DNA of 13,203 nt from Patescibacteria group bacterium UBA1449 (GTDB lineage Bacteria; Patescibacteriota; Microgenomatia; UBA1400; UBA1449): positions 1,254 through 14,456 of the forward strand of contig DCTD01000065.1 of NCBI GenBank assembly GCA_002335355.1, written 5' to 3'. Shown here piece by piece: positions 2,060 through 13,203 of this stretch. The position numbers were made by a program, and so were the translations under genes. The notes beneath the pieces are model-generated. The model ran no database searches and was not told the origin of the DNA. It saw nothing but the letters and a program-made list of their open reading frames with translations. Every line of letters starts with the position of its first letter. Positions within the stretch are counted from its first letter, which is position 1.

Positions 2060-4432
2060 ATGAATAAAACAAAAACGGCATCAAGTAATGTAAACAAAAA
2101 GAAGAGTACTACTAAACCTAGGTCAAAGAGTATTGTAAAGATAAAAAAGAAGCCTGAAGAGTTAAATGAGAAAAAAAGGAGAGTAAAAATTGAGATATTA
2201 AAAGCTCCGACTAAAAAAAGTGTTCCGGAACGTTTGCTTGATACCGTAATAACTGGAAAAGTATGGTTTGGTGGTCTTTTCATTGGATTTCTTTTTTCTG
2301 TTTTATATATATCGACTGCTCCAGTAACCAACGTTTCCTATGCCGACTCTGATGAACTACTGGCAATTGCCTACAACATGGGTGTTGCCCATCCTCCTGG
2401 ATATTCTCTTTACATGCTTTTGCTTCACTGGTTCTTACATCTTCCTATCCCTGGAACAATTGCCTTTAAAGGACATGTATTAAGCGCTCTTTTTCAAGGG
2501 GGTGCTTTAACGTTTATTTTTGTTACTGTATGGCGATTGATCGAATACATTCAAGTTAATGCTACAAAGAAAATCAGTATCATTACTCTTGAAAAAGACC
2601 GCTGGCTATTAAGTGTCATTGCAACGATTCTACTGGGTTCGTCATTTCTGTACTGGCTTTATGGATCAATTACTGAAAAGTATGCGTTCAATAATCTCCT
2701 TATTGCCCTACTAATTTGGTTATCAGTTACGTTTTTAACTTCACAAAGACATTTACTTGCACTATCCTACTGGATTGGATTAGGAATTGTTTCAGGATTA
2801 GCTTTGTCCCATCATCAAACTACTATTTTACTGTTTCCGTTAGTAGGGGCAGTTATGTATTTTGTTAGACCTCGGTTACAGCACGAAGTTAGTGTGTTTC
2901 TTGTTTCAGGTGTTGGTGTGTTTGCACTTTCACTCGGAGTCTTATTCTGGCAGAACACGCTACCTAGTTCTGTAAGCTGGAACTTTGAACCGACATTCCA
3001 AGGATTGGTTGATCATGTAACCCGTAAGGACTTTGGGACTACCGGTAATGAGACTGTTTTTAGTGCTTACATACCATCAGTTGACATCTCTGGAATGGTA
3101 AAAACTCTGCCTGTATACTTGAAAACGCTTGTTCAACACTTTGGGTATGTAACAATTCTTATAACTGTTGTTGGAGCTATAGTCCTTTGGCAACGAAGCA
3201 AAAGACTTGGTAAGGTACTTGTGATACAAGCCTTAATAGTTACAGTCCTTTTTCCACTCTATCTCAAATGGCCAGTCAATATTGGCACGCAAGCCATAAC
3301 TATGCGGCAGTATTTAATGGGATATATGGTAGTGCCTCTCTTATTGTCAGGCGGCTGGTTGTTTGTTTTAGCTCGTCTTTCAAAGGTTTTAGAAGTTGCT
3401 GGGATTAAACGACATATCGGTTATGGAATACTGTTGTTTATTGCAATAGTACTGCCAGCGTATAAAGTAATAAACACATATTCTAAGGTAAACTTACGAT
3501 CATTTACCATTGTACATGATCTCCATAAACACATACTTGAAGATCTTCCCCAAAACTCAATGCTTGCTTGTTTTACGGATCTATCCTGTTTTGCGCTTCT
3601 CTATGCACAAGAGGTTGAACATACTCGACCCGATGTTATTCTAGTGCCTGCAGCTCACCCGTTAGTTCACAGTAAGTTAGAGAGTTATCAGGGATTAAGA
3701 GGCTTTACCTATCCTGATGACCCCTACTTAACACTTGACTATCTTACGTGGAATATTGGCAAACGGTCCGTTTTTGTTGTTGATATGACACCTGATTTTT
3801 TTGATTTGCTCGGTACTGAATATAGTTTTACCTATCTTATACCTTATGGGTATTATGGTGAGTTAACGCGGCGAGTTCCAGATGAACTACCGGTAACGAG
3901 CTATGAGTTAACTGATAGAATGTATGCTACTAAAGTTCCACCAGAAGATTTAATGGGTACGTTTGTGAAAAGTACGTTTGCTAGGTTCCATGTAACCAAT
4001 GCAAGTATCTATCAGAAAATGGCAAACCGTAATCGGGCCCGCGATGAGCTTAATATTGCTGCAAACTTAATGTTCCAAGTTCCTCAAGCCTCTCCACAAG
4101 AAATTGAAATGACACGAACAAGTATTGAGTCAACACTTCCTGTGATTAACTATAAACCTGGTTCAACCAATCAAGGGATTGAGGATATTCTTAAGATTGT
4201 AAATGATTATCTAGAAAAAGGAAGATTACAAAAAGCATATATAGGTGCACGAGGTACCATTGTTATTGATCCACTTACAGAAGAAGGAAGATTAAAACTG
4301 GCGGAAATCCATGAACGCATGGGAGATCGAAAATTTGCCTTGTTGGAGTATAAACACGTGTTGCTTTATCATCCAGAAAACGAAACTGCTCAACAAAAAG
4401 TGAAAGAGTTGCAGTCAATAAACTTTAAGTAA
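2060..4432 (+). CDS. DUF2723-type GT-C membrane glycosyltransferase with C-terminal TPR, copy 1
   Basis: This 790-residue polytopic membrane protein belongs to the DUF2723 family, whose eukaryotic relative TMEM260 is a protein O-mannosyltransferase. Residues 1-60 form a lysine-rich cytoplasmic tail. The first membrane segment (about 69-87) leads into an external loop with YADSDE (94-99), the likely acidic catalytic motif of the GT-C fold, and HPPGY (111-115). Further membrane segments run to about 470, with 'DHVTRKDFG' near 318-326 in another external loop. The soluble part contains FTDLSCF (505-511), YAQEVE (515-520) and RPDV (523-526), all typical of the family. About 700-785 is TPR-like (ending near 'ALLEYKHVLLYHPEN'). 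It probably transfers a lipid-linked sugar to exported proteins. It is the first gene of a two-gene operon. Donor and target are unknown. The first 60 residues are absent from the paralogue downstream. Confidence 0.88.
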   Translation: MNKTKTASSNVNKKKSTTKPRSKSIVKIKKKPEELNEKKRRVKIEILKAPTKKSVPERLLDTVITGKVWFGGLFIGFLFSVLYISTAPVTNVSYADSDELLAIAYNMGVAHPPGYSLYMLLLHWFLHLPIPGTIAFKGHVLSALFQGGALTFIFVTVWRLIEYIQVNATKKISIITLEKDRWLLSVIATILLGSSFLYWLYGSITEKYAFNNLLIALLIWLSVTFLTSQRHLLALSYWIGLGIVSGLALSHHQTTILLFPLVGAVMYFVRPRLQHEVSVFLVSGVGVFALSLGVLFWQNTLPSSVSWNFEPTFQGLVDHVTRKDFGTTGNETVFSAYIPSVDISGMVKTLPVYLKTLVQHFGYVTILITVVGAIVLWQRSKRLGKVLVIQALIVTVLFPLYLKWPVNIGTQAITMRQYLMGYMVVPLLLSGGWLFVLARLSKVLEVAGIKRHIGYGILLFIAIVLPAYKVINTYSKVNLRSFTIVHDLHKHILEDLPQNSMLACFTDLSCFALLYAQEVEHTRPDVILVPAAHPLVHSKLESYQGLRGFTYPDDPYLTLDYLTWNIGKRSVFVVDMTPDFFDLLGTEYSFTYLIPYGYYGELTRRVPDELPVTSYELTDRMYATKVPPEDLMGTFVKSTFARFHVTNASIYQKMANRNRARDELNIAANLMFQVPQASPQEIEMTRTSIESTLPVINYKPGSTNQGIEDILKIVNDYLEKGRLQKAYIGARGTIVIDPLTEEGRLKLAEIHERMGDRKFALLEYKHVLLYHPENETAQQKVKELQSINFK

Positions 4433-4440
4433 ATCTGAAT

Positions 4441-6717
4441 ATGAAATTGCCCAATATTAGTCCAAATCTTATTGGTGCTTTAGTGGTTTGGATACTATCC
4501 TATGCTGTCTATATATTTAGTGCAGCTAGGACTAACCCAGGATATGCGGACTCAGATGAGATGATTACTGTTGGCTATGGACTTGGTGTGGCTCACCCTT
4601 CAGGCTATCCATTACTAGTGACACTCATAAAACTATTTACTCTCATGCCGATTAATGGCAGCATCGCTTTTAAAGCTAATCTACTAAGCGGTTTTTTACA
4701 TAGCTTAACAGTAGTCTTTGTATATCTAATTGGGATTGAGGTGCTGCGTGTGTTGTCTTCAAAAAAGGAAGTCTCTGAACAAAAAATAATACACAAGACT
4801 GTAATGGTTGATAAGACTGCAAAAGAGAGTGAAGTTTTACCTGTTTTAGTTGCCGCAGGCGGCAGCTTATTACTAGCATTTTCAGCGCTATTTTGGTTGT
4901 ACTCAGGTGTTATAGAAGTTTTCGTTGTTAGTGATTTTTTGGCAGTTTTGGCCATTTGGACAGGATGGCAATGGAGAAAGACTGTATTAAATCAAGTTAG
5001 GAACTCGAAAAGAGAATGGGCTTGGTTTTCTGTAACATGTATGTTGGTAGGGTTGGGTATTTCACACTTACATACCTTTCTCTTTCTACTGCCAGGATTT
5101 GGACTACTGTTGTTATTAACTCTATTGCGAGTGAAGAAACAACGGATGTATCCGTGGTATTCGTATGTTTTTCTTGTTTTATTAGTTAGTGCTGGATTTA
5201 TACTCCCTAATCTTCTGCTCTTTTGGTTAAACAGCCACCAAGCCAATGTCTCCTGGCACTTTCCTCAAGACATTTCAAGTTGGTGGGAGCATGTAACCCG
5301 GAGAGCTTATGCTGGTTATTATCCGGAACGTGATGTTCAAAGTGGTGCTTATATAGGGTTCTTGGATTTCAGTCAATATATTCGTACATTTCCCTATTAC
5401 TGGAGGTATATAAATGATCACTTTGCCTATGTTGGTGTTAGCCTTGGTTTGGCTGGAGTGGTGTGGTTATTCCAAAAACACAAAGAGTTGTTAGTAATTC
5501 TTGGTTCATTTTTCCTTTTTGCAGGGTTACTGTTAGGTTTGTATCTTGGTGTACCAGAAAATACTCCTAATAACTTAGAATACCGGATGTTAACCGGTGT
5601 TATTCAACGCCAATACTTGTTGGGAGAAGTGTTATGGGCGCTCTTAATAATCGTTGGGTTATGGGCACTAGTTCAAGTTATTAAACACTATCAAAAATTT
5701 GACTATCATAAAACATTGTTAGTTGTGATTGGCCTTGTCATCACCTTAGTTACTTGGTCATTTTGGGATAACCATACGATGGGGATTCAAAAGAATAACC
5801 GTTTGGCACAAGTTTATGCCCATGAAGTATTAGAAAACGCGGATAAAGACTCGGTAATTATTTGTTTCTCTGATTTTGCCTGCTTTTCCTTGCTTTATGC
5901 TCAGGAAGTAGAGGGATTGCGTCCAGATGTTGCAGTTGTAACTAAGAATGCCTATATAAAGAAATATTATTTAGATAGAAATCCTGAATTAACTGGTTTC
6001 AATTACTCTGAAAACCCTTACTTTATTGCTGATATTCTCACTTGGAATGTTGATAAACGGACGACCTATCTGACTGATGCCACCAGTTTTTATATTAACT
6101 ATATTGGCTTGGAAGGGAATCCATTCTTTCTTATCCCTGAGGGGTATCTATTTAAAGTGACAAAAAAAGTTCCGGAGATTATTGGTTCATTTGATTACCC
6201 GGTTACTAAATACTTACTTTCCCTACCAAAATCAGAGAAAGACTTCTACTTGGTTGGTCAACAGGACTATTTTGCAAACTTTCATACACTCATGGCTGTA
6301 ATTTATAGTTATCTTGGGCTTAAAGATGAAGCCAGGATGAATTTTCAGTTAGCCTTAACATTAAACAATAAATATGAAGTAGCTCAAAACTTATATGGCA
6401 GTTTGGCTGGTTACGCAGGGAATCCACAGTATGCGTTAGGTATGGAAAGTTCTAGTTCAGCCTACTATCTTCAAGCGGGAATAGATAGAATCAATCAGAA
6501 AAAGTTGGATGAAGCATACAAGTATGTACAAAAAGCTACCTTTATTGATCCCTTAAATCACGAAGCGAGACTTCAACTTGCTAACCTGTATCGTTTAGGA
6601 GGGTATTATATGGAAGCAAAAATGGAATACCGTAATGTGTTAAAAATTAAGCCTGATGATGCTGTGGCACAAAAAAGCATAGCGGATATACTGGAAAAAG
6701 AGAGTAATAGACCTTAG
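4441..6717 (+). CDS. DUF2723-type GT-C membrane glycosyltransferase with C-terminal TPRs, copy 2
   Basis: This 758-residue protein is a clear paralogue of the upstream gene and starts 8 bp after its stop without a Shine-Dalgarno sequence, so the two are almost certainly cotranscribed. The first membrane segment is at about 8-28. The GT-C acidic motif YADSDE is at 35-40 and HPSGY at 52-56. WWEHVTRRAY is at 281-290 and membrane segments continue to about 440. The soluble domain shows CFSDFACF (475-482), YAQEVEGLRPDV (486-497) and TPR-like repeats at roughly 612-645, 683-716 and 717-750. A charged loop between the early membrane helices (about 105-132) differs from copy 1. Two divergent copies may form a heteromer or handle different acceptors or donors. 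The gene ends in TAG, overlapping the stop codon of the convergent lipoprotein gene. Confidence 0.88.
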   Translation: MKLPNISPNLIGALVVWILSYAVYIFSAARTNPGYADSDEMITVGYGLGVAHPSGYPLLVTLIKLFTLMPINGSIAFKANLLSGFLHSLTVVFVYLIGIEVLRVLSSKKEVSEQKIIHKTVMVDKTAKESEVLPVLVAAGGSLLLAFSALFWLYSGVIEVFVVSDFLAVLAIWTGWQWRKTVLNQVRNSKREWAWFSVTCMLVGLGISHLHTFLFLLPGFGLLLLLTLLRVKKQRMYPWYSYVFLVLLVSAGFILPNLLLFWLNSHQANVSWHFPQDISSWWEHVTRRAYAGYYPERDVQSGAYIGFLDFSQYIRTFPYYWRYINDHFAYVGVSLGLAGVVWLFQKHKELLVILGSFFLFAGLLLGLYLGVPENTPNNLEYRMLTGVIQRQYLLGEVLWALLIIVGLWALVQVIKHYQKFDYHKTLLVVIGLVITLVTWSFWDNHTMGIQKNNRLAQVYAHEVLENADKDSVIICFSDFACFSLLYAQEVEGLRPDVAVVTKNAYIKKYYLDRNPELTGFNYSENPYFIADILTWNVDKRTTYLTDATSFYINYIGLEGNPFFLIPEGYLFKVTKKVPEIIGSFDYPVTKYLLSLPKSEKDFYLVGQQDYFANFHTLMAVIYSYLGLKDEARMNFQLALTLNNKYEVAQNLYGSLAGYAGNPQYALGMESSSSAYYLQAGIDRINQKKLDEAYKYVQKATFIDPLNHEARLQLANLYRLGGYYMEAKMEYRNVLKIKPDDAVAQKSIADILEKESNRP

Positions 6718-6721
6718 TCTA
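6708..6721. other. Small inverted repeat over the overlapping stop codons
   Basis: TAGAC-CTTA-GTCTA forms a 5-bp stem with a 4-base loop exactly where two convergent genes end. The plus-strand TAG is at 6715-6717 and the minus-strand TAA at 6716-6714. There is no T-tract on either side and the stem is short, so it is a poor intrinsic terminator. It may be chance. Confidence 0.3.
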
Positions 6722-7838
6722 CGTGTTGAGTTTCGGTTTGGATGACTATTTCGTTATATTTTTCCATGAGAATCTTTTTGTTGCCTTTAAAGTCACTAAG
6801 CCATAAACGGTTGAATTGACTGGGTCCATCAACAATCGTTTCTTCAATTAAATACTGTTTTTCTGACCAAGGTGTAAAATGAGGCCGCTGCAATTCACTT
6901 GCAATTTCAAGTGGAGATCGAGCAATTTCTTTTTTCGTTGAATAGTCATAAACTCTCCAATAGCCACTTTTTGTTAATAGAAAGAGTGAGTTATTAATCC
7001 GTTTTACTGTAATTATTTGATCATTTTGATTAAGAGTGATTAGTGGTTTGGGTTGGTCCGGGTTAATAACTGAGAAAAACTCAAGAACATTGTTGTTTAT
7101 CATCAGTACACCTGTAGCATCTGGAGCCCAAAAAACCCAGTTTCTATCAGCTAGGTTGGTTTTTGAAAAAAACTGTTTTGAAAAAACGCCTTGACTGGAT
7201 GTGAACATAAACTTAGGATTATTTTTTGTTTGACCATAACCAGAAACAAATAAGACAGTATTACCGTCGGGAGCTAATTTAAAGACATTGCCATAGGGAT
7301 AGGGAATATCAATCTTAGTCTCTTGTTTGGAGTCTAAAGCAATCGTATAGAGCCTGTTTCCATTGTCAGTAATAAACATCACTGTATCTTGATTAGGGGC
7401 AAACTCTAAATACGGATATGTATTAAGAAAATCGTTAGCAGGATAAATCAATTGAGCTTTCTGTTGACGAATGTTGAGCGCAATAAATCCTTTTGTAGGG
7501 GTATACCAGACAACCCATTGTTTGCTTGGACTGACAACAAAGGTGTCTAGACTAGTTTTTGCAGGTAGTTCATCCTTACTAAAGGTATACACTTTAAGAG
7601 GCTTAGCAAAGTCTGGATCGATAAGGTAGAGCTCAGCATTATTTGCTATCGCAATTAGACTATCGCCTTTTAAGATATCTTCTATGGTAACTGAAGAGTC
7701 TTGACTGTTTGCTAGTTGCTGTATTGATGAACTTTTTGGGGAAAGATTAATTGTGGGAGTACAAGCAGTAAACGATACAATGGTAAAAAAGACAAACACT
7801 ATATATAAAAGATTTTTCGGCTTGCACATAGCATTCAT
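6714..7838 (-). CDS. Lipoprotein with TolB-like/WD40-like beta-propeller repeats
   Basis: From the ATG at 7838 this encodes 374 residues. A short basic start and a hydrophobic stretch (LLYIVFVFFTIV) end in a lipobox-like SFTAC. The cysteine, about residue 26, would be lipidated and anchor the protein to the outside of the membrane. The rest has repeated strand-turn units typical of TolB-like propellers, such as 'VVSPSKQWVVWY', 'LEFAPNQDTVMFIT', 'KLAPDGNTVLFVS' and 'FWAPDATGVLMI', each with an S/APD-x-x-x-(V)-x-(F/W) core. No catalytic residues are seen, so a binding or scaffold role is likely. An in-frame TTG lies 6 bp upstream and another ATG lies 9 bp inside. All three starts keep the signal peptide. 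It is the last gene of the minus-strand surface cluster and overlaps the convergent glycosyltransferase by 4 bp. Confidence 0.82.
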   Translation of the reverse strand: MNAMCKPKNLLYIVFVFFTIVSFTACTPTINLSPKSSSIQQLANSQDSSVTIEDILKGDSLIAIANNAELYLIDPDFAKPLKVYTFSKDELPAKTSLDTFVVSPSKQWVVWYTPTKGFIALNIRQQKAQLIYPANDFLNTYPYLEFAPNQDTVMFITDNGNRLYTIALDSKQETKIDIPYPYGNVFKLAPDGNTVLFVSGYGQTKNNPKFMFTSSQGVFSKQFFSKTNLADRNWVFWAPDATGVLMINNNVLEFFSVINPDQPKPLITLNQNDQIITVKRINNSLFLLTKSGYWRVYDYSTKKEIARSPLEIASELQRPHFTPWSEKQYLIEETIVDGPSQFNRLWLSDFKGNKKILMEKYNEIVIQTETQHVD

Positions 7839-7871
7839 GATCAATCTACCTAGTAAAGTGCCACTGAATAA

Positions 7872-7912: not shown

Positions 7913-9130
7913 TTAGGTTTCTTTACTGTTCTCTCTTTCAGGATTAAGTCCCTGCATGATTTCTGAAACTGTTTCTTCAAATTCAGACTGGAATTTATCT
8001 GAACCAGATTTTTCTTTCAAGATTTCCATTTTTGTTTCCAGAGCTGCCAGTTCCCCGGATATCAGCTCTTCAATATAGCGGGCTTTAAGCTTGGAACTTC
8101 GGCTATTCATTATCATTTTCCAAATGGCAACAGCTAAGAGAATTAAAAAGGTGAGTGTGGAAATAAAGTTGATTAAAACGACCGTTTTATCTGCTTTAGA
8201 CTTACCTGGTATTAAGAGATCCCGTAGGCCTTGGACTGCCATAACTTCTCCTTGGCTGCTAGGTTCTGAAAGATTATTTTCAGCTACAACAAAAGGGGTG
8301 GCATTAGGTCGAGGTGAAAGGGGGGGTGGAGCAGGAATAGTATTATCTTCTTCAATTACTTCTAGTTGAGAATTACTGCCAGTTGATGTTGTTCCACTTG
8401 AACCAGTTCTTGTGAAATTATCAGTAACATCCACAACGGTTACATCATCAAATAAGACTGTTTGATTTACGATTGGTGTAGGTGATGGTACCGGTGTGGC
8501 CGAGGCTGAAGCGGTTGGTGTCGGCGTAGCTGTTGGAGTCGGAGCTACAGTTGGGGTTACTGAGGGTATTGCAGTTGGGGAAACCGTTGGTTGAGCAGTG
8601 CCGGTGATTGTTAGTGTAAATGGGTCCATTGCTCCCGGTACAATCGTTGATCCTAGAAAGGCAAAATAGCTATCGGAGAATGTAAGTGAAGTTGTACCAT
8701 CTTTATATGGTGTTAACGTAACTGTAGCTATGAGTCCATCACTACCATTATATCCTGAACCGGTAAAACCACAGGTCAAGACTACTTTGCTGTTATAAAA
8801 ATAGGGAGTGACCTTAGTTAAGTTTTCGCCGGGAGGTGCCGAGTTGGCTGGGGTCCACATTGAGCATTGAGAGTTGACGATACTAATTGAAGTTGCTGTA
8901 AAGTAATTGCTGTCGAAATTAACAACTGCCTGCATGGCTCCTATTTGATTTCCGTCAGTGTTTAAGTGAAGCTCGTACCGTTCAGCAGTACCTGAGGTGA
9001 CTTCAGTTCTGCCATAGATATAAAAGTACGGATTGGCGTAAGCCTTATCTGGAGTGAGAAGAAAAAAACCAAAAACGAATGGTATCAAGACGGTAATACG
9101 AAAAATCACACTACTTGCCATAGCTTTCAT
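7913..9130 (-). CDS. Secreted, membrane-anchored cohesin-domain protein with Pro/Thr linker and cytoplasmic coiled coil
   Basis: This 405-residue protein begins with a signal peptide (about 1-32, ending in AYA). Residues 34-176 resemble a cohesin-type beta-sandwich: 'YELHLNTDGNQIGAMQAVVNFD' aligns with the NTDGKAVNAVSLYVAFD stretch of the neighbouring cohesin gene, with matching cysteines at C89 and C120. A linker rich in Pro, Thr, Ser and Ala spans about 178-222, and a second polar, proline-rich stretch runs to about 300. A membrane helix (about 317-340) is followed by a charged, probably helical cytoplasmic tail (343-395). Cohesins bind dockerins, and a dockerin protein is encoded two genes upstream in the cluster. 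The linkers are candidate O-glycosylation sites. It is preceded by its own predicted promoter, with the upstream cohesin gene ending 59 bp before. The cohesin call rests on pattern, not on a search. Confidence 0.8.
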   Translation of the reverse strand: MKAMASSVIFRITVLIPFVFGFFLLTPDKAYANPYFYIYGRTEVTSGTAERYELHLNTDGNQIGAMQAVVNFDSNYFTATSISIVNSQCSMWTPANSAPPGENLTKVTPYFYNSKVVLTCGFTGSGYNGSDGLIATVTLTPYKDGTTSLTFSDSYFAFLGSTIVPGAMDPFTLTITGTAQPTVSPTAIPSVTPTVAPTPTATPTPTASASATPVPSPTPIVNQTVLFDDVTVVDVTDNFTRTGSSGTTSTGSNSQLEVIEEDNTIPAPPPLSPRPNATPFVVAENNLSEPSSQGEVMAVQGLRDLLIPGKSKADKTVVLINFISTLTFLILLAVAIWKMIMNSRSSKLKARYIEELISGELAALETKMEILKEKSGSDKFQSEFEETVSEIMQGLNPERENSKET

Positions 9131-9149
9131 TAGATATGCTTACTCTAGA

Positions 9150-9178
9150 ATTATGACGATTTTATCGTTACTTTGCAA
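9150..9178 (-). promoter_or_regulatory. Predicted promoter of the large cohesin gene, with palindrome in the spacer
   Basis: On the minus strand TTGCAA (9178-9173) and CATAAT (9155-9150) are separated by exactly 17 bp. The spacer contains ACGAT-TTT-ATCGT (9156-9168 on the plus strand), a perfect 5-bp inverted repeat. A regulator bound there would block the promoter, so it is a candidate operator. The predicted leader is about 12 nt. Confidence 0.5.
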
Positions 9179-9189
9179 TCTTGAAGTAC

Positions 9190-9735
9190 TTAAATACCAT
9201 TAAGGATGAGAAGTTTGTGCTCAATGGGTGTACTGAAAATATTAGTTCCCTTACCGTCATTCAGTAAAATCTGACTTTTATCTGTAATCGTTAGAGAAGC
9301 TTGACCAATGTTAGTTGTATAAAAGTCTACAACGGCAATAACACTTTCACCGGTAAATCCAGGACTAGGTGCCCCACATGATATCGAGATAGTTCCTGCA
9401 GTATTATTAAACTTGTTTTCTGGATAAAACTGACAAAAAGAGTCTGATGTATTGACATTTAAAATTCTTAATTTTTCTGGATCAAATGCTACGTATAAAC
9501 TGACCGCATTTACTGCTTTGCCGTCCGTATTAGCAATAAACTTCACCTGATAGGGAGAGCTAACAGATACTGTTTCAGAGGCATCTATCTTATAAGTTCC
9601 TGATGCGTTCTGACTACCAAGAGTAGTTGGTGTCAGTGACTTGCCTTGTAAACGGAATAGCAAGCCAACAGAAAAAACGAGAGTAAACCCAAAGATGGAT
9701 AAAAGAATCCAGTAGACTGTGTTTGATAATCTCAT
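9190..9735 (-). CDS. Small membrane-anchored cohesin-domain protein
   Basis: This 181-residue protein has one N-terminal membrane anchor (about 8-28, uncleaved in appearance) followed by a short linker and a single cohesin-like domain (about 55-178). Characteristic stretches are KFIANTDGKAVNAVSLYVAFD (around 65-85), 'SFCQFYPENKFNNTAG' (99-114), 'ISCGAPSPGFTGE' (118-130), 'IAVVDFY' and the final 'LLNDGKGTNI'. Cys101 and Cys120 match the pair in the larger cohesin protein and could form a disulfide outside the cell. Its expected partner is a dockerin. It starts 11 bp after the stop of the coiled-coil gene, across a run of seven T residues and without a Shine-Dalgarno sequence, so it is probably cotranscribed with that gene. 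The domain makes up nearly all of the protein, suggesting a simple membrane receptor for a dockerin partner. Confidence 0.85.
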   Translation of the reverse strand: MRLSNTVYWILLSIFGFTLVFSVGLLFRLQGKSLTPTTLGSQNASGTYKIDASETVSVSSPYQVKFIANTDGKAVNAVSLYVAFDPEKLRILNVNTSDSFCQFYPENKFNNTAGTISISCGAPSPGFTGESVIAVVDFYTTNIGQASLTITDKSQILLNDGKGTNIFSTPIEHKLLILNGI

Positions 9736-9746
9736 GACAAAAAAAG

Positions 9747-11417
9747 TTATTTAATGAACTTTAAGGAGTTTAGCATAATATCGATTCTTTTGGCATCATC
9801 ATCTGAGAGGGTATTGCTGTAGGTAGCATACCAAATGTCTAAAATATAGTCATTATATTTAACAAAGTATTTATCTCCAGGATACTCTGAAAAATCTTCT
9901 AATTCTAAGAAAAGAGCTGGCCGGTCTCTAAACGTAGTCTCTTTGACCTTATATTTAAGACTGCTGGTTTGGATAAGCTTCCAGTATTCTTTCACATCCA
10001 AACCTGTTTCAATAGCTTGAATCTTAAAAACGTAACCAGTCTTTCTAATAAAGGTTATGCTACTATCGGTTTTAATTACATTGACAGCGTTTACAGGATA
10101 GTTGATTTCAATACCGAAAGTTGGATCTTTTAAGGTTTCCCATTTGGTTTCTGCAAAGGGGACGTTAGCTTGGGAAGCTGCATACTTATCATCACTAGCA
10201 CCTTTTGTTTCCGGTTGAGGAGGTGTTGAGGGTTGGGCCGGTGTTGGTTCTTGACTAGCGGCTGGCATCTCGTCTATTTTTTTTTCCTGAGCTTCGGGTT
10301 GAGTCTGTTGGAGCTGTTGTTGTGATTCTGGAGGTAGATACTCCTGGACCAGTGAAGTATTTACTTCAGTACTTCGGTTTAGAAAATACCAACCAGCTCC
10401 ACCTAAAGCAAAGACAAAAAAGAGAGTTGTAGCTAGAACAATGATTGGTTTTGGTACTTTTGATAACAAGCCTTTTTTCTCAGGTTCGGTTACTAGCGGC
10501 GCAGGTGTAGGGGATGGTGTTAGTGTTGTCTGAGGTTGTGCTGGTGGGGTGGGTGATGCTGGCGTTTCTGTCTTAGGTGTAGACTCGTCTGTTTGAGGGG
10601 GAGGAGTGGGTGATACTGGTGGTGTAATTGGAGTTTGAACTGTTGTTTGTTGCTGGTTTTGACCATCTGCAGATACTGGTGTTGTAGGGGTGGTAGGTAC
10701 AACTGTAGCTGATGGAGACGGAACAGAACTTTGAGTGCTTAAATTCTCATTTTCTACTAGATGATTCATGGCACTTACTATTTCCTGGAGTTCTTTTGAA
10801 ATGGAAAAAAACTTATTGTTTTGAATTGGTTCAGTTCGGTGAAGATCTTTACGTAAATCCTTAATGGTTGATTCAAGTTGCTGGCGTTCATGTAAGAATG
10901 ACTCTTTTAATGTATCAATTTCTTCTTTAAACTGTGATTCTTTGTTGAGTGAATGCTCTAATTCTTTTTCGAGAAGTAAGATTTTCTCTTCAACTGAGTG
11001 ATTTTTAAAGTCAAGCTCATCATCATTACAATTATGACTTTCATTTCTTTGTAATGACTCGTGACTATTTTTAGGTTGCACGCTTCTACCTTCTGTAGTT
11101 GGTAGGCGGCGAGAGTGTGAGGGGCTATCATTGACTGAGTTTTGTAAGATCTCGCTTTGACTTTGTTGACTAGAAAGATCTCTCATTTTCTGACTCAACT
11201 CACTCTTTAGCTGTTTTACTTGAGTAATGTGGTCCTCTAATTCGGCTAATTTTAAGTGAACTAAGTCAGCAGGGTTCTCTTCACGTCTTATGACACTGTG
11301 ATAGGGTACATCAGGTTCTCTATAGCTACTGGTAGCCAATCTTTTGAGGGGACGATAAAATCCCGGTTGAGTGCGCGAGGCTTTGGAAGTGACAAGGTAT
11401 TTTTTTGTTCTAGCCAT
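9747..11417 (-). CDS. Coiled-coil, single-pass membrane protein with Pro/Thr linkers and extracellular C-terminal domain
   Basis: From the ATG at 11417 this encodes 556 residues. The N-terminus is basic (MARTKKYL). Two predicted coiled-coil stretches lie at about 49-91 and 141-196. A Pro/Thr/Gln-rich linker spans about 229-311. A membrane helix at about 324-345 follows KKGLLSKVPK, so the N-terminal half should be cytoplasmic by the positive-inside rule. Outside the membrane a Gln/Pro-rich stretch (about 350-410) leads to a globular domain (about 425-556) containing 'DPTFGIEINYPVN', a strand pattern common in PsbP-like domains of uncultured bacteria. The frame is open 29 codons further up to a TTG at 11504, but those residues look unlike a signal or a conserved start, so the ATG is preferred. 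It sits between the dockerin gene and the small cohesin gene. It may link cytoplasmic filaments to the surface complex, but the function is unknown. Confidence 0.8.
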   Translation of the reverse strand: MARTKKYLVTSKASRTQPGFYRPLKRLATSSYREPDVPYHSVIRREENPADLVHLKLAELEDHITQVKQLKSELSQKMRDLSSQQSQSEILQNSVNDSPSHSRRLPTTEGRSVQPKNSHESLQRNESHNCNDDELDFKNHSVEEKILLLEKELEHSLNKESQFKEEIDTLKESFLHERQQLESTIKDLRKDLHRTEPIQNNKFFSISKELQEIVSAMNHLVENENLSTQSSVPSPSATVVPTTPTTPVSADGQNQQQTTVQTPITPPVSPTPPPQTDESTPKTETPASPTPPAQPQTTLTPSPTPAPLVTEPEKKGLLSKVPKPIIVLATTLFFVFALGGAGWYFLNRSTEVNTSLVQEYLPPESQQQLQQTQPEAQEKKIDEMPAASQEPTPAQPSTPPQPETKGASDDKYAASQANVPFAETKWETLKDPTFGIEINYPVNAVNVIKTDSSITFIRKTGYVFKIQAIETGLDVKEYWKLIQTSSLKYKVKETTFRDRPALFLELEDFSEYPGDKYFVKYNDYILDIWYATYSNTLSDDDAKRIDIMLNSLKFIK

Positions 11418-11531
11418 GGCAGAATTTAGAAATAATGTACCATTTATAACATTAGCAATTTTAAGAAGTACTTGCAAGATGGAAGCGGAATCAATACGTA
11501 TCAACTTAAGCCAATAATGCGATTCAGATAT

Positions 11532-12770
11532 TTATATGCCCCAGTAGTACATCATAATACTAAAGTCAACTAAGTTAACTAAATTATCATTATTAATATC
11601 TGCTGCTGGGCTGGTTGAACCCCAGTAGTACATTAAAATACTAAAGTCAGTTAGGTTGGTGTGGCTATCGCAGTTTAGGTCTCCATGAGATACATCACAT
11701 GCTGCAGGAGAAGGTGTGGGTCCAGAACTAGGTAAGATAGTAAACTGTAAGGCATTACTAAATAAACTTTGAGTTCCACCACTGTTTTGGACTAGTGCGT
11801 AAAGACGATAGTCGCCAGGTATATAGTCGTTAGTATTGGTGATAGTATAGTCCCAGTTTCCATCACTTGTAGCTGTAGTATAGTAGGTTCTCAGGGGAGA
11901 CTCTGTAAAAACACTTACATCACCTAACGGAATAGTTGATCCTTGAACGATTAGGTTTGTTCCTTGGACAATCTCACTTGTGTTAAGTTCGACAGTTGGA
12001 GACAGTAAGAGATTTGAGATGGTTGTTAGTTGATAGATCGGAGTATAGATTTCAATATTAATTGGGGAAGTAGTTCTATTGCTTTGATCAACACCGTACA
12101 AAGAAATATCGTGAGTATCAGGGTCTAATCCTCCAAAGAATTTGTTAAAATACCCGTTACTGCCTCCTGCAGTATCGGTTCCAATGACGGTACCGCTTTC
12201 ACTAAAGGTGACAAACGTACCTGGAGCAGAGTATCCCGAAATTGATAATGATGCTACCGGTGGAGCAATGGAAGCGGATATTGAAACAATACCAGAAAAT
12301 GGAGTTGCCATGAATGAAGCTAAGTTCTTAATTATATCGCCGTTTACGTCTTCAGAAATTATGACTTTAACAGTATACTCACTTTTCGTACTAGGATTAG
12401 TTGCTGTTATTCCAACAATCTCAATGTTACTACCCGGTAGAATGACTATTCCGGTAATTAATACTTTGTTTGTGTCTACAGTAATCGTTGGACTCCCCAT
12501 GTAATCTCCAGATAGAGCAGTCGCTTGTGTAATATCGTGAAAATGTGTCAGTTCAACTATGATATAGTCTGTTGTTGTTACCATTTGTGAATTAACTGGT
12601 ACCGTAAATGAGATTGTATGAGAGACATTTCTCTCATCTATATTGGAATTACTAAGCACATCAACGGGGTTTTCTAGGTTACCAGCTGCATGTAAAGGGT
12701 GTGAAAAACTTCCCAACCAGGTAAGGAAAGAAATAGTAACAATAAATACTAGCAGGGCAGAGAGGCGCAT
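11532..12770 (-). CDS. Secreted Ig-like protein with C-terminal type I dockerin
   Basis: This 412-residue protein has a signal peptide ending near HAA (about residue 29). Residues 30-160 form a beta-rich domain. Two Ig-like domains follow at about 168-242 ('SGYSAPGTFVTFSESGTVIGT') and 250-348. After a short Pro/Ser linker (350-357) come two dockerin repeats. Repeat 1 holds D364, N366, D368, N372 and D375, and repeat 2 holds D391, N393, D395, N399 and D402, each followed by 'DFSI-MYYWG'. These fit the calcium-binding loop consensus D-x-N-x-D-x3-N-x2-D of type I dockerins, which dock onto cohesins outside the cell. There is no membrane anchor, so the protein is probably held at the surface by the cohesin proteins downstream. 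An extended -10 promoter lies upstream. No catalytic domain is visible, unlike cellulosomal enzymes. Confidence 0.88.
   Translation of the reverse strand: MRLSALLVFIVTISFLTWLGSFSHPLHAAGNLENPVDVLSNSNIDERNVSHTISFTVPVNSQMVTTTDYIIVELTHFHDITQATALSGDYMGSPTITVDTNKVLITGIVILPGSNIEIVGITATNPSTKSEYTVKVIISEDVNGDIIKNLASFMATPFSGIVSISASIAPPVASLSISGYSAPGTFVTFSESGTVIGTDTAGGSNGYFNKFFGGLDPDTHDISLYGVDQSNRTTSPINIEIYTPIYQLTTISNLLLSPTVELNTSEIVQGTNLIVQGSTIPLGDVSVFTESPLRTYYTTATSDGNWDYTITNTNDYIPGDYRLYALVQNSGGTQSLFSNALQFTILPSSGPTPSPAACDVSHGDLNCDSHTNLTDFSILMYYWGSTSPAADINNDNLVNLVDFSIMMYYWGI
11539..11657 (-). repeat. DNA-level duplication within the dockerin coding region
   Basis: The 38-bp segments 11539-11576 and 11620-11657 match at 33 positions and are offset by 81 bp (27 codons). 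They encode the 'NL-DFSI-MYYWG' ends of the two dockerin repeats. Nucleotide similarity this high suggests recent duplication or conversion between the repeats, or strong selection on both. Confidence 0.75.
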
Positions 12771-12846: not shown

Positions 12847-13203
12847 TTATCCCTTTGCAATTACTTTCAGTATCTTAGCAACACGATTTCTACCAACAAT
12901 TATAGTAACGACAAATCCTACTAATGCTACTGCTGCGATAAAAGTAACCAAGACAATCAGTTTTGGTACCACAGTAGATTTCACTACTGCTGTCAGCGGT
13001 AGTTTATTTTGACCGTAGGTAGCAATTAGTGTAGCAGTGTAACTTCCAAGCAGACTACTCTTATCCCACTTAGTATCCATTTTTCGGGTTGCACCAGGTA
13101 AGACATTTCGACTATCGAGTGGAATTTCAGCTACTTTTTTACCAAATAAGTCAGTAATGACAATAGTTCCCTCTGGTCTAATATGAGTGTTACTTTCGTT
13201 TCT
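12847..13203 (-). CDS. C-terminal part of a membrane-anchored Ig-like/DUF916-like surface protein (5' end outside window)
   Basis: The frame is open from the window edge at 13203 to the TAA at 12849-12847, giving 118 residues. An internal ATG at 13080 is not a convincing start because the 41 codons before it continue the same domain. Visible motifs are 'N-THIRPEGTIVITDLFG', 'AEIPLDSRNVLPG' and 'GSYTATLIATYG', the strand pattern of the last domain of WxL/DUF916-type surface proteins. A membrane helix ('LIVLVTFIAAVALVGFVVTII') and a basic tail (GRNRVAKILKVIAKG) end the protein, so the domain is outside and the tail inside. It precedes the dockerin gene by 76 bp on the same strand and is probably part of the same surface cluster. 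The N-terminal domains are not visible. Confidence 0.75.
   Translation of the reverse strand, partial: RNESNTHIRPEGTIVITDLFGKKVAEIPLDSRNVLPGATRKMDTKWDKSSLLGSYTATLIATYGQNKLPLTAVVKSTVVPKLIVLVTFIAAVALVGFVVTIIVGRNRVAKILKVIAKG

Follow-up and report, generated by a model that had tools for sequence, protein, structure and literature searches.

Gene organization of the locus

The DNA analysed here is a stretch of 13,203 nucleotides (hereafter the window; contig DCTD01000065.1, positions 1,254 to 14,456) from Patescibacteria group bacterium UBA1449, whose minus strand carries an operon combining a dockerin protein, docA, with two membrane-anchored, cohesin-like proteins, coh1 and coh2. Elsewhere, cohesins and dockerins build cellulose-digesting machines, the cellulosomes. 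In the direction of transcription, the operon comprises the end of a WxL-interacting protein gene, docA, the gene of a coiled-coil membrane protein, coh1, coh2 and a lipoprotein-like gene, and two TMEM260-like genes face it. The source genome measures 1.19 Mb in 113 contigs, with a listed completeness of 92.4% and a contamination of 6.2%; it is thus reduced, as the initial annotation had assumed. The coordinates, strand and order given in that annotation hold, except that the coiled-coil gene (9747-11504) sits between docA and coh1. The interval from 7913 to 12770 quoted there is too short, and the operon extends further upstream, into the WxL-interacting protein gene (window 12847 onward).

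The docA gene (11532..12770, minus strand) encodes a signal peptide recognised by eye, an N-terminal beta domain, an Ig-like region and a C-terminal two-loop dockerin (residues ~359-412; Pfam family PF00404). The dockerin module itself (residues 359-412; 11535..11696, minus strand) contains two D-x-N-x-D loops, with Cys367 in the first loop and Cys358 just before the module. The coh1 gene (9190..9735, minus strand) encodes an N-terminal membrane helix followed by a cohesin (residues ~43-181). Similarly, coh2 (7913..9130, minus strand) encodes a cohesin fold (residues ~31-178) behind a signal peptide assigned by eye, followed by a P/T-rich linker, the juxtamembrane motif QSLRDLLIPGKSxADKTVV, a C-terminal membrane helix and a coiled coil.

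The dockerin of docA

In the scan of the window proteins, PF00404 matched residues 362-407 of docA at 25.0 bits (cut-off 22.9; E 2.2e-5), and the whole-genome search returned the same dockerin at E 6.5e-6. Both loops, DLNCDSHTNLTD and DINNDNLVNLVD, are complete, and the two 21-residue repeats match at 14 of 21 positions, which bears out the earlier description of a protein ending in a dockerin with two complete loops. In known dockerins, the internal symmetry of the repeats is linked to two binding modes (cf. the titles of 2vn5 and 2vn6). Searched by sequence, the Protein Data Bank gave its best matches to docA in 5nrm, a solved dockerin of type I (E 6.6e-5), and in 2yik, an endoglucanase that has a dockerin-like stretch (E 1.3e-4).

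Conservation was followed in an alignment of 87 sequences, docA and 86 relatives (P0052-P0138), from which 33 weaker or shorter relatives (P0139-P0171) of the 120 listed, plus 20 further matches, were left out. Measured as the mean fraction of the majority residue, with region borders set by eye, conservation was highest in the dockerin (0.77), followed by the Ig-like parts (0.57 and 0.59), the N-terminal domain (0.49), the linker (0.39) and the signal peptide (0.28). Two strict loops are present in 80 of the 87 sequences, one in 6 and none in 1; of the seven sequences that depart from the pattern, P0086 and P0134 look cut short. In addition, Cys358 and Cys367, which lie at the first dockerin loop (window 11670-11699), are conserved in 97% and 99% of the sequences, respectively; the calcium loops of docA are possibly disulphide-stapled, with Cys358-Cys367 as the predicted bond. 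This cysteine-clasp pattern occurs in 6 of the 72 dockerin-bearing open reading frames (ORFs) of the order to which the source genome belongs, and five of the six are docA orthologues; the clasp therefore marks the docA branch, not the order. The Ig-like label of the initial annotation is weak for the window docA itself, with Big_13 at 18.2 bits under a cut-off of 27, but several docA relatives carry precomputed PF17936 or PF19077.

The cohesin fold of coh1 and coh2

Both cohesin-like proteins score under the cut-off of the Pfam cohesin model PF00963 (24.1 bits), coh1 at 16.7 and coh2 at 14.3 bits, and their fold was therefore tested. The coh1 orthologues at L044:8214-8741 and L045:10000-10548 score 33.0 and 19.3 bits, respectively. 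At E<=1, PF00963 matches 15 of 21 members of the coh1 family and 1 of 30 members of the coh2 family, and a coh2 profile recovers coh1 at E 2.3e-7. Neither sequence nor profile searches against solved structures were of use for coh1 and coh2; 3ghp, the sole cellulosomal row, aligned with coh2 at E 0.34, mainly outside the cohesin part. The identity of the two proteins was thus settled by the fold comparison, in which the single-protein models of both coh1 and coh2 proved to be cohesins, and solved cohesins top both structure lists. The CLIPPER adhesin domain likewise matches both models, and the absence of a family from these lists does not exclude that family. The cohesin-like assignment made earlier from the letters is hence upheld by the fold, though the profile scores lie under the Pfam cut-off.

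The models also agree with the opposite anchors first proposed for the two proteins. The N-terminal helix of coh1 comprises residues 5-31, whereas coh2 has an N-terminal helix resembling a signal peptide by eye and, beyond its P/T-rich linker, a long C-terminal helix that starts at residue 312. It is in this last part that coh2 is most constrained: the motif GEVxxxQSLRDLLIPGKSxADKTVV and the helix that follows it (window 8030-8251, residues ~294-367) hold most of the invariant columns, exceeding the cohesin domain. Given this concentration, coh2 likely has a partner at or inside the membrane. A scan of the genome contigs with the coh1 alignment returned two loci.

Conservation of the operon

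The initial annotation had asked whether the cluster is conserved in related genomes. The order of WxL-interacting protein gene, docA, coiled-coil gene, coh1, coh2 and lipoprotein gene is kept in L044 (genome G001) and L045 (genome G002), both of the family relatives examined, and in each a lipoprotein-like gene lies directly downstream of coh2. In a genome of a different family (G016; locus L046), the coiled-coil gene, coh1 and coh2 stand together beside TMEM260-like genes, there is no lipoprotein gene at this place, and docA and the WxL-interacting protein gene lie on a separate contig. A search of the 88 genomes of the order gave strong docA matches (E<=1e-100) in five (G000, G001, G002, G003 and G016). 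At the strong level, coh1 (E<=1e-40) and coh2 (E<=1e-90) were matched in four of these five and in none of the others. The remaining genome, G003, is 89% complete and has no strong coh1 or coh2 match. Since the genomes with strong matches fall in two families, their agreement reflects co-inheritance and is not independent evidence.

Evidence from further afield comes from distant, longer coh1 relatives (E 8e-21 to 7e-29) in seven genomes (G029, G032, G034, G063, G064, G067 and G087), to which the adjacency test was confined, weaker profile matches in G040, G078 and G035 being left out. The gene just upstream of the coh1 relative ends in dockerin-type loops in all seven genomes, compared with 2 of 88 other ORFs there, one of the two resembling a true dockerin. 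Three of the seven loci (L047-L049) had already been seen when the test was set up; the remaining four (L126-L129) were new to it, and all of them agreed. The Pfam dockerin model matches four of the seven upstream partners, each under the cut-off, and fails to match three; one of the four passes when its frame neighbours are included (24.6 bits). The first loop is EF-hand-like or degenerate in several of the partners, and a C-D-x-N-x-D-x2-C loop is found in all seven.

The distant coh1 relatives have features of their own. Disulphides are predicted in coh1 (Cys101-Cys120) and coh2 (Cys89-Cys120), but the idea of a coh1 disulphide was rejected for the distant relatives, as the cysteine pair is absent in all seven. 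The sequences of these relatives (L126-L129, L047-L049) have a CxxC near the N-terminus (~49-61) in seven of seven cases and a second CxxC close by in five, an arrangement that is zinc-ribbon-like. Genes of the DNA-uptake type are neighbours of a dockerin-cohesin locus in three genomes (L047:5421-8107, L048:7343-10053 and L055:6806-9633); their products are Competence (PF03772), a protein of the metallo-beta-lactamase fold and a helix-hairpin-helix/SLBB protein.

A second cluster in the genome

PF00963, a model that misses divergent cohesins, has three matches in the source genome, in three ORFs. A second cluster, with a further cohesin and two dockerin ends, lies on contigs C91 and C83, each of which ends inside a gene. 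C91 encodes a fibronectin-domain membrane protein (29.3 bits) and a dockerin protein (28.6 bits), and it also holds the first part of a gene that no Pfam family matches. C83 has a dockerin end, scoring 26.5 bits, and encodes a membrane protein in which a fibronectin-like domain (23.6 bits, under the cut-off) is combined with a cohesin; the cohesin scores 22.1 bits in the whole protein, under the cut-off, and 25.2 bits with its frame neighbours. The fibronectin membrane protein of C91 has no Pfam cohesin match and is akin to the C83 protein (phmmer E ~1e-20), and we infer that C91 adjoins C83.

In G002 (L053), a single gene fuses a cohesin (17.9 bits, under the cut-off) to a dockerin (28.9 bits), and its neighbours encode a CBM60-bearing protein (66.8 bits) and a cohesin-fibronectin protein (cohesin 19.2 bits, under the cut-off). 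This fusion resembles an adaptor scaffoldin tier. The initial annotation spoke of a minimal complex; given the second cluster and the WxL-interacting protein in the operon, the complex is probably not minimal.

Co-occurrence of cohesins and dockerins

Pfam cohesins and dockerins were counted at E<=1e-3 in the 88 genomes of the order and in a phylum sample of 379 genomes. In the order, cohesins occur in 25 genomes and dockerins in 47, with both in 18 (Fisher P 0.024). In the phylum sample, the corresponding numbers are 113 and 152; 77 genomes have both domains, 36 a cohesin only, 75 a dockerin only and 191 neither, which gives an odds ratio of 5.4 (P 5e-13, with no correction for kinship). The same searches returned a cohesin match in 1 and a dockerin match in 2 of 14 control genomes. 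Within the order, a dockerin lies within 2 kb of 24 of the 44 cohesins, where random placement expects about 0.9 (0.86) within 5 kb. The dockerin is in the same ORF for 10 of these 24 cohesins and in a separate ORF for 14 (11 genomes), and the other 20 of the 44 have no nearby dockerin at this threshold. A dockerin lies within 2 kb of 5 of the 40 matches to the WxL-interacting protein model in the order.

Larger architectures may exist as well. G261, G154 and G181 are among the patescibacterial genomes with 8 to 15 dockerin matches or two-cohesin ORFs, and the ORFs of 945 and 969 amino acids in G154 and G181, with two cohesin matches each, are possibly larger scaffolds. In the order, two-cohesin ORFs occur outside the source genome, for example, in G078:C17, G005:C12 and G016:C26.

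The WxL-interacting protein and neighbouring genes

The window holds the C-terminal 118 residues of the WxL-interacting-protein homologue (12847..13203, minus strand), which end in a membrane helix assigned by eye; its WxLIP_PGBD part lies beyond the window. The whole gene beside docA (L010:2101-3045) has one undetermined residue. The name is taken from the Pfam model PF06030 (WxLIP_PGBD), which scores 33.3 bits at C57:14622-14918 of the source genome (cut-off 27.3) and 38.8 and 32.4 bits in the orthologues. The gene adjoins docA in G000, G001, G002, G003 and G016 and a docA-like gene in G029. The protein is a possible wall anchor. No Pfam match to a WxL-domain protein was found among the neighbours scanned, which were not all of the neighbours.

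The product of the coiled-coil gene (9747..11504, minus strand) is a membrane protein rich in proline, whose C-terminal domain is extracellular. No Pfam or NCBIfam model matched it over the cut-off, and family placement failed; we take the extracellular domain to be PsbP-like, with no Pfam match. The coiled-coil gene more likely starts at the ATG at 11417, since the L044 orthologue begins MARTKK. The last gene of the operon (6714..7844, minus strand) is lipoprotein-like, with a lipobox-like SFTAC seen by eye, and matches no Pfam family over the cut-off. The two genes facing the operon (2060..6717, plus strand) encode TMEM260-like protein O-mannosyltransferases (PF11028, 94.9 and 97.3 bits), and such genes are found near the cohesin genes in the window, L044, L045 and L046. 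Promoter and terminator scans of the window gave numbers near the shuffle level (22 vs 17.7 and 3 vs 4.5) and were not used, and no tRNA was found in the window.

A probable surface scaffold and its alternatives

Taking these results together, we consider it fairly probable that the operon encodes a cohesin-dockerin scaffold at the cell surface. docA would be secreted, and membrane-anchored coh1, coh2 or both would probably catch it through its C-terminal dockerin in a calcium-dependent manner. The WxL-interacting protein would help to place docA at the wall, tying the assembly to peptidoglycan, and an Ig-like, non-enzymatic stalk or adhesin would be displayed. The surface proteins may be substrates of the neighbouring O-mannosyltransferase-like proteins; possible sites of glycosylation are the linker of coh2, rich in P and T, or the Ig-like domains. 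In our view, the likeliest use of such a scaffold is attachment to another cell. It is a more tentative proposal, and on balance a doubtful one, that a calcium plug-and-socket apparatus of this kind, for the most part without enzymes, is widespread in Patescibacteria. Membrane cohesins, a dockerin adhesin that is secreted and a wall anchor of the WxL type would in that case together attach the cell to a host or neighbour, and both the dockerin loops and the cohesins would be disulphide-stapled. We know of no such disulphide-stapled loops or cohesins in cellulosomes.

The cohesin-like domains might by now be general adhesion or stalk domains that bind no dockerin, the docA dockerin serving another receptor such as the cohesin of the second cluster. 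The distance of coh2 from PF00963 and the CLIPPER matches fit this idea, as do the presence of at least one further cohesin, on C83, and the separation of docA from coh1 and coh2 in G016. The closely kept order of the genes in three family members, the dockerin-type gene adjoining the coh1 relatives in each of the seven further genomes, and the solved cohesins at the top of both structure lists argue against it, and we regard it as unlikely. We find it still harder to accept a WxL-type module for envelope or cell-wall homeostasis, in which the dockerin-cohesin contact joins the membrane and wall of the same cell and has no role toward other cells. The place of the WxL-interacting protein gene beside docA or, in G029, a docA-like gene, the membrane helices of both cohesins and the coiled-coil membrane protein of the operon would suit such a module, but an Ig-like protein that is secreted makes an unusual linker, and a Pfam WxL-domain protein is missing from the neighbours scanned; this explanation is very improbable.

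There is also the proposal, made in print for other Microgenomates, of a true, if small, cellulosome, in which the cohesins would assemble enzymes that bear dockerins and degrade polysaccharides. Dockerin matches number 73 in the order and fall in 72 ORFs; scanned as proteins, 63 of these ORFs match PF00404 at E<=1e-3 (24, 24 and 15 of 24 by batch). Single ORFs match peptidase S8, GH26, metallophosphatase, GDSL lipase, M64, GH43, WbsX and alginate lyase, among others, and the G002 relative of the second-cluster dockerin protein carries the CBM60. These matches fit a degradative machine, but each named catalytic family appears in one batch member only; at most nine of the 72 ORFs are involved, to which a small number of beta-helix proteins can be added. 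The three dockerin ORFs found in the source genome match no enzyme family, polysaccharide-degrading or other; as a contig end truncates one of the three and the completeness of the genome is 92%, an enzyme may be missed. Similarly, the ten window proteins scanned with Pfam include no glycosidase family, and docA no recognised enzyme, in line with the initial annotation, although a missing Pfam match does not prove a missing enzyme. A cellulosome is thus improbable here, somewhat more so than adhesion domains that bind no dockerin, and a non-enzymatic surface scaffold remains our preferred explanation.

Comparison with known systems

The presence of the domain pair in Microgenomates is already known and is not new. 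Shapirobacterales include a genome reported to contain cohesins and a dockerin, which were interpreted as a cellulosome (PMC9123182), and the same paper cites a Roizmanbacterium case (Geesink 2020). The genomes share the wider lineage and the domain pair with the operon described here and differ in the cellulosome reading; gene order and a WxL link do not appear in the passages of that paper drawn on here. An operon joining WxL-interacting protein, dockerin and cohesins was not found in the open literature searched, outside which most subscription papers lie. If these domains form a surface scaffold and no cellulosome, the carbon-cycling inferences drawn from them, as far as they appear in those passages (PMC9123182), need a second look.

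The subject bears on how ultra-small Patescibacteria hold other cells, and, if the scaffold is real, a small, defined domain pair makes part of that question testable at the bench. The essential dockerin-domain protein SEML1_0315 of the cultivated epibiont Southlakia, described in the parts of PMC10633639 that concern it, indicates an organism to look in. It is likewise a patescibacterial dockerin-domain envelope protein but belongs to the Saccharibacteria, and the word cohesin is absent from the main text of that paper. In an Omnitrophota genome, dockerins in a giant ORF may act as adhesins, according to a passage of PMC10066038.

Non-cellulosomal cohesins (Clostridium perfringens 2vo8, 2jh2 and 2w1n; Archaeoglobus fulgidus 2xdh) share the cohesin fold outside a cellulosome, and few structures match coh1 and coh2 better. 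Their identity to the two proteins is approximately 12-18%, and coh1 and coh2 are membrane proteins in an operon with a dockerin gene rather than parts of a secreted glycosidase. With the cellulosome of Clostridium thermocellum and its kin, the present system shares a type I dockerin, membrane-anchored cohesins and, in G002, a cohesin-dockerin fusion like an adaptor scaffoldin; it differs in that the dockerin ORFs found in the genome match no enzyme and the window has no multi-cohesin scaffoldin bearing a cellulose-binding module. Finally, the WxLIP_PGBD domain and the C-terminal membrane helix seen by eye are shared with the WxL/WxL-interacting protein system of Gram-positive bacteria; Pfam recognised no WxL-domain protein among the neighbours scanned here, and a dockerin-cohesin pair fills the neighbouring places.

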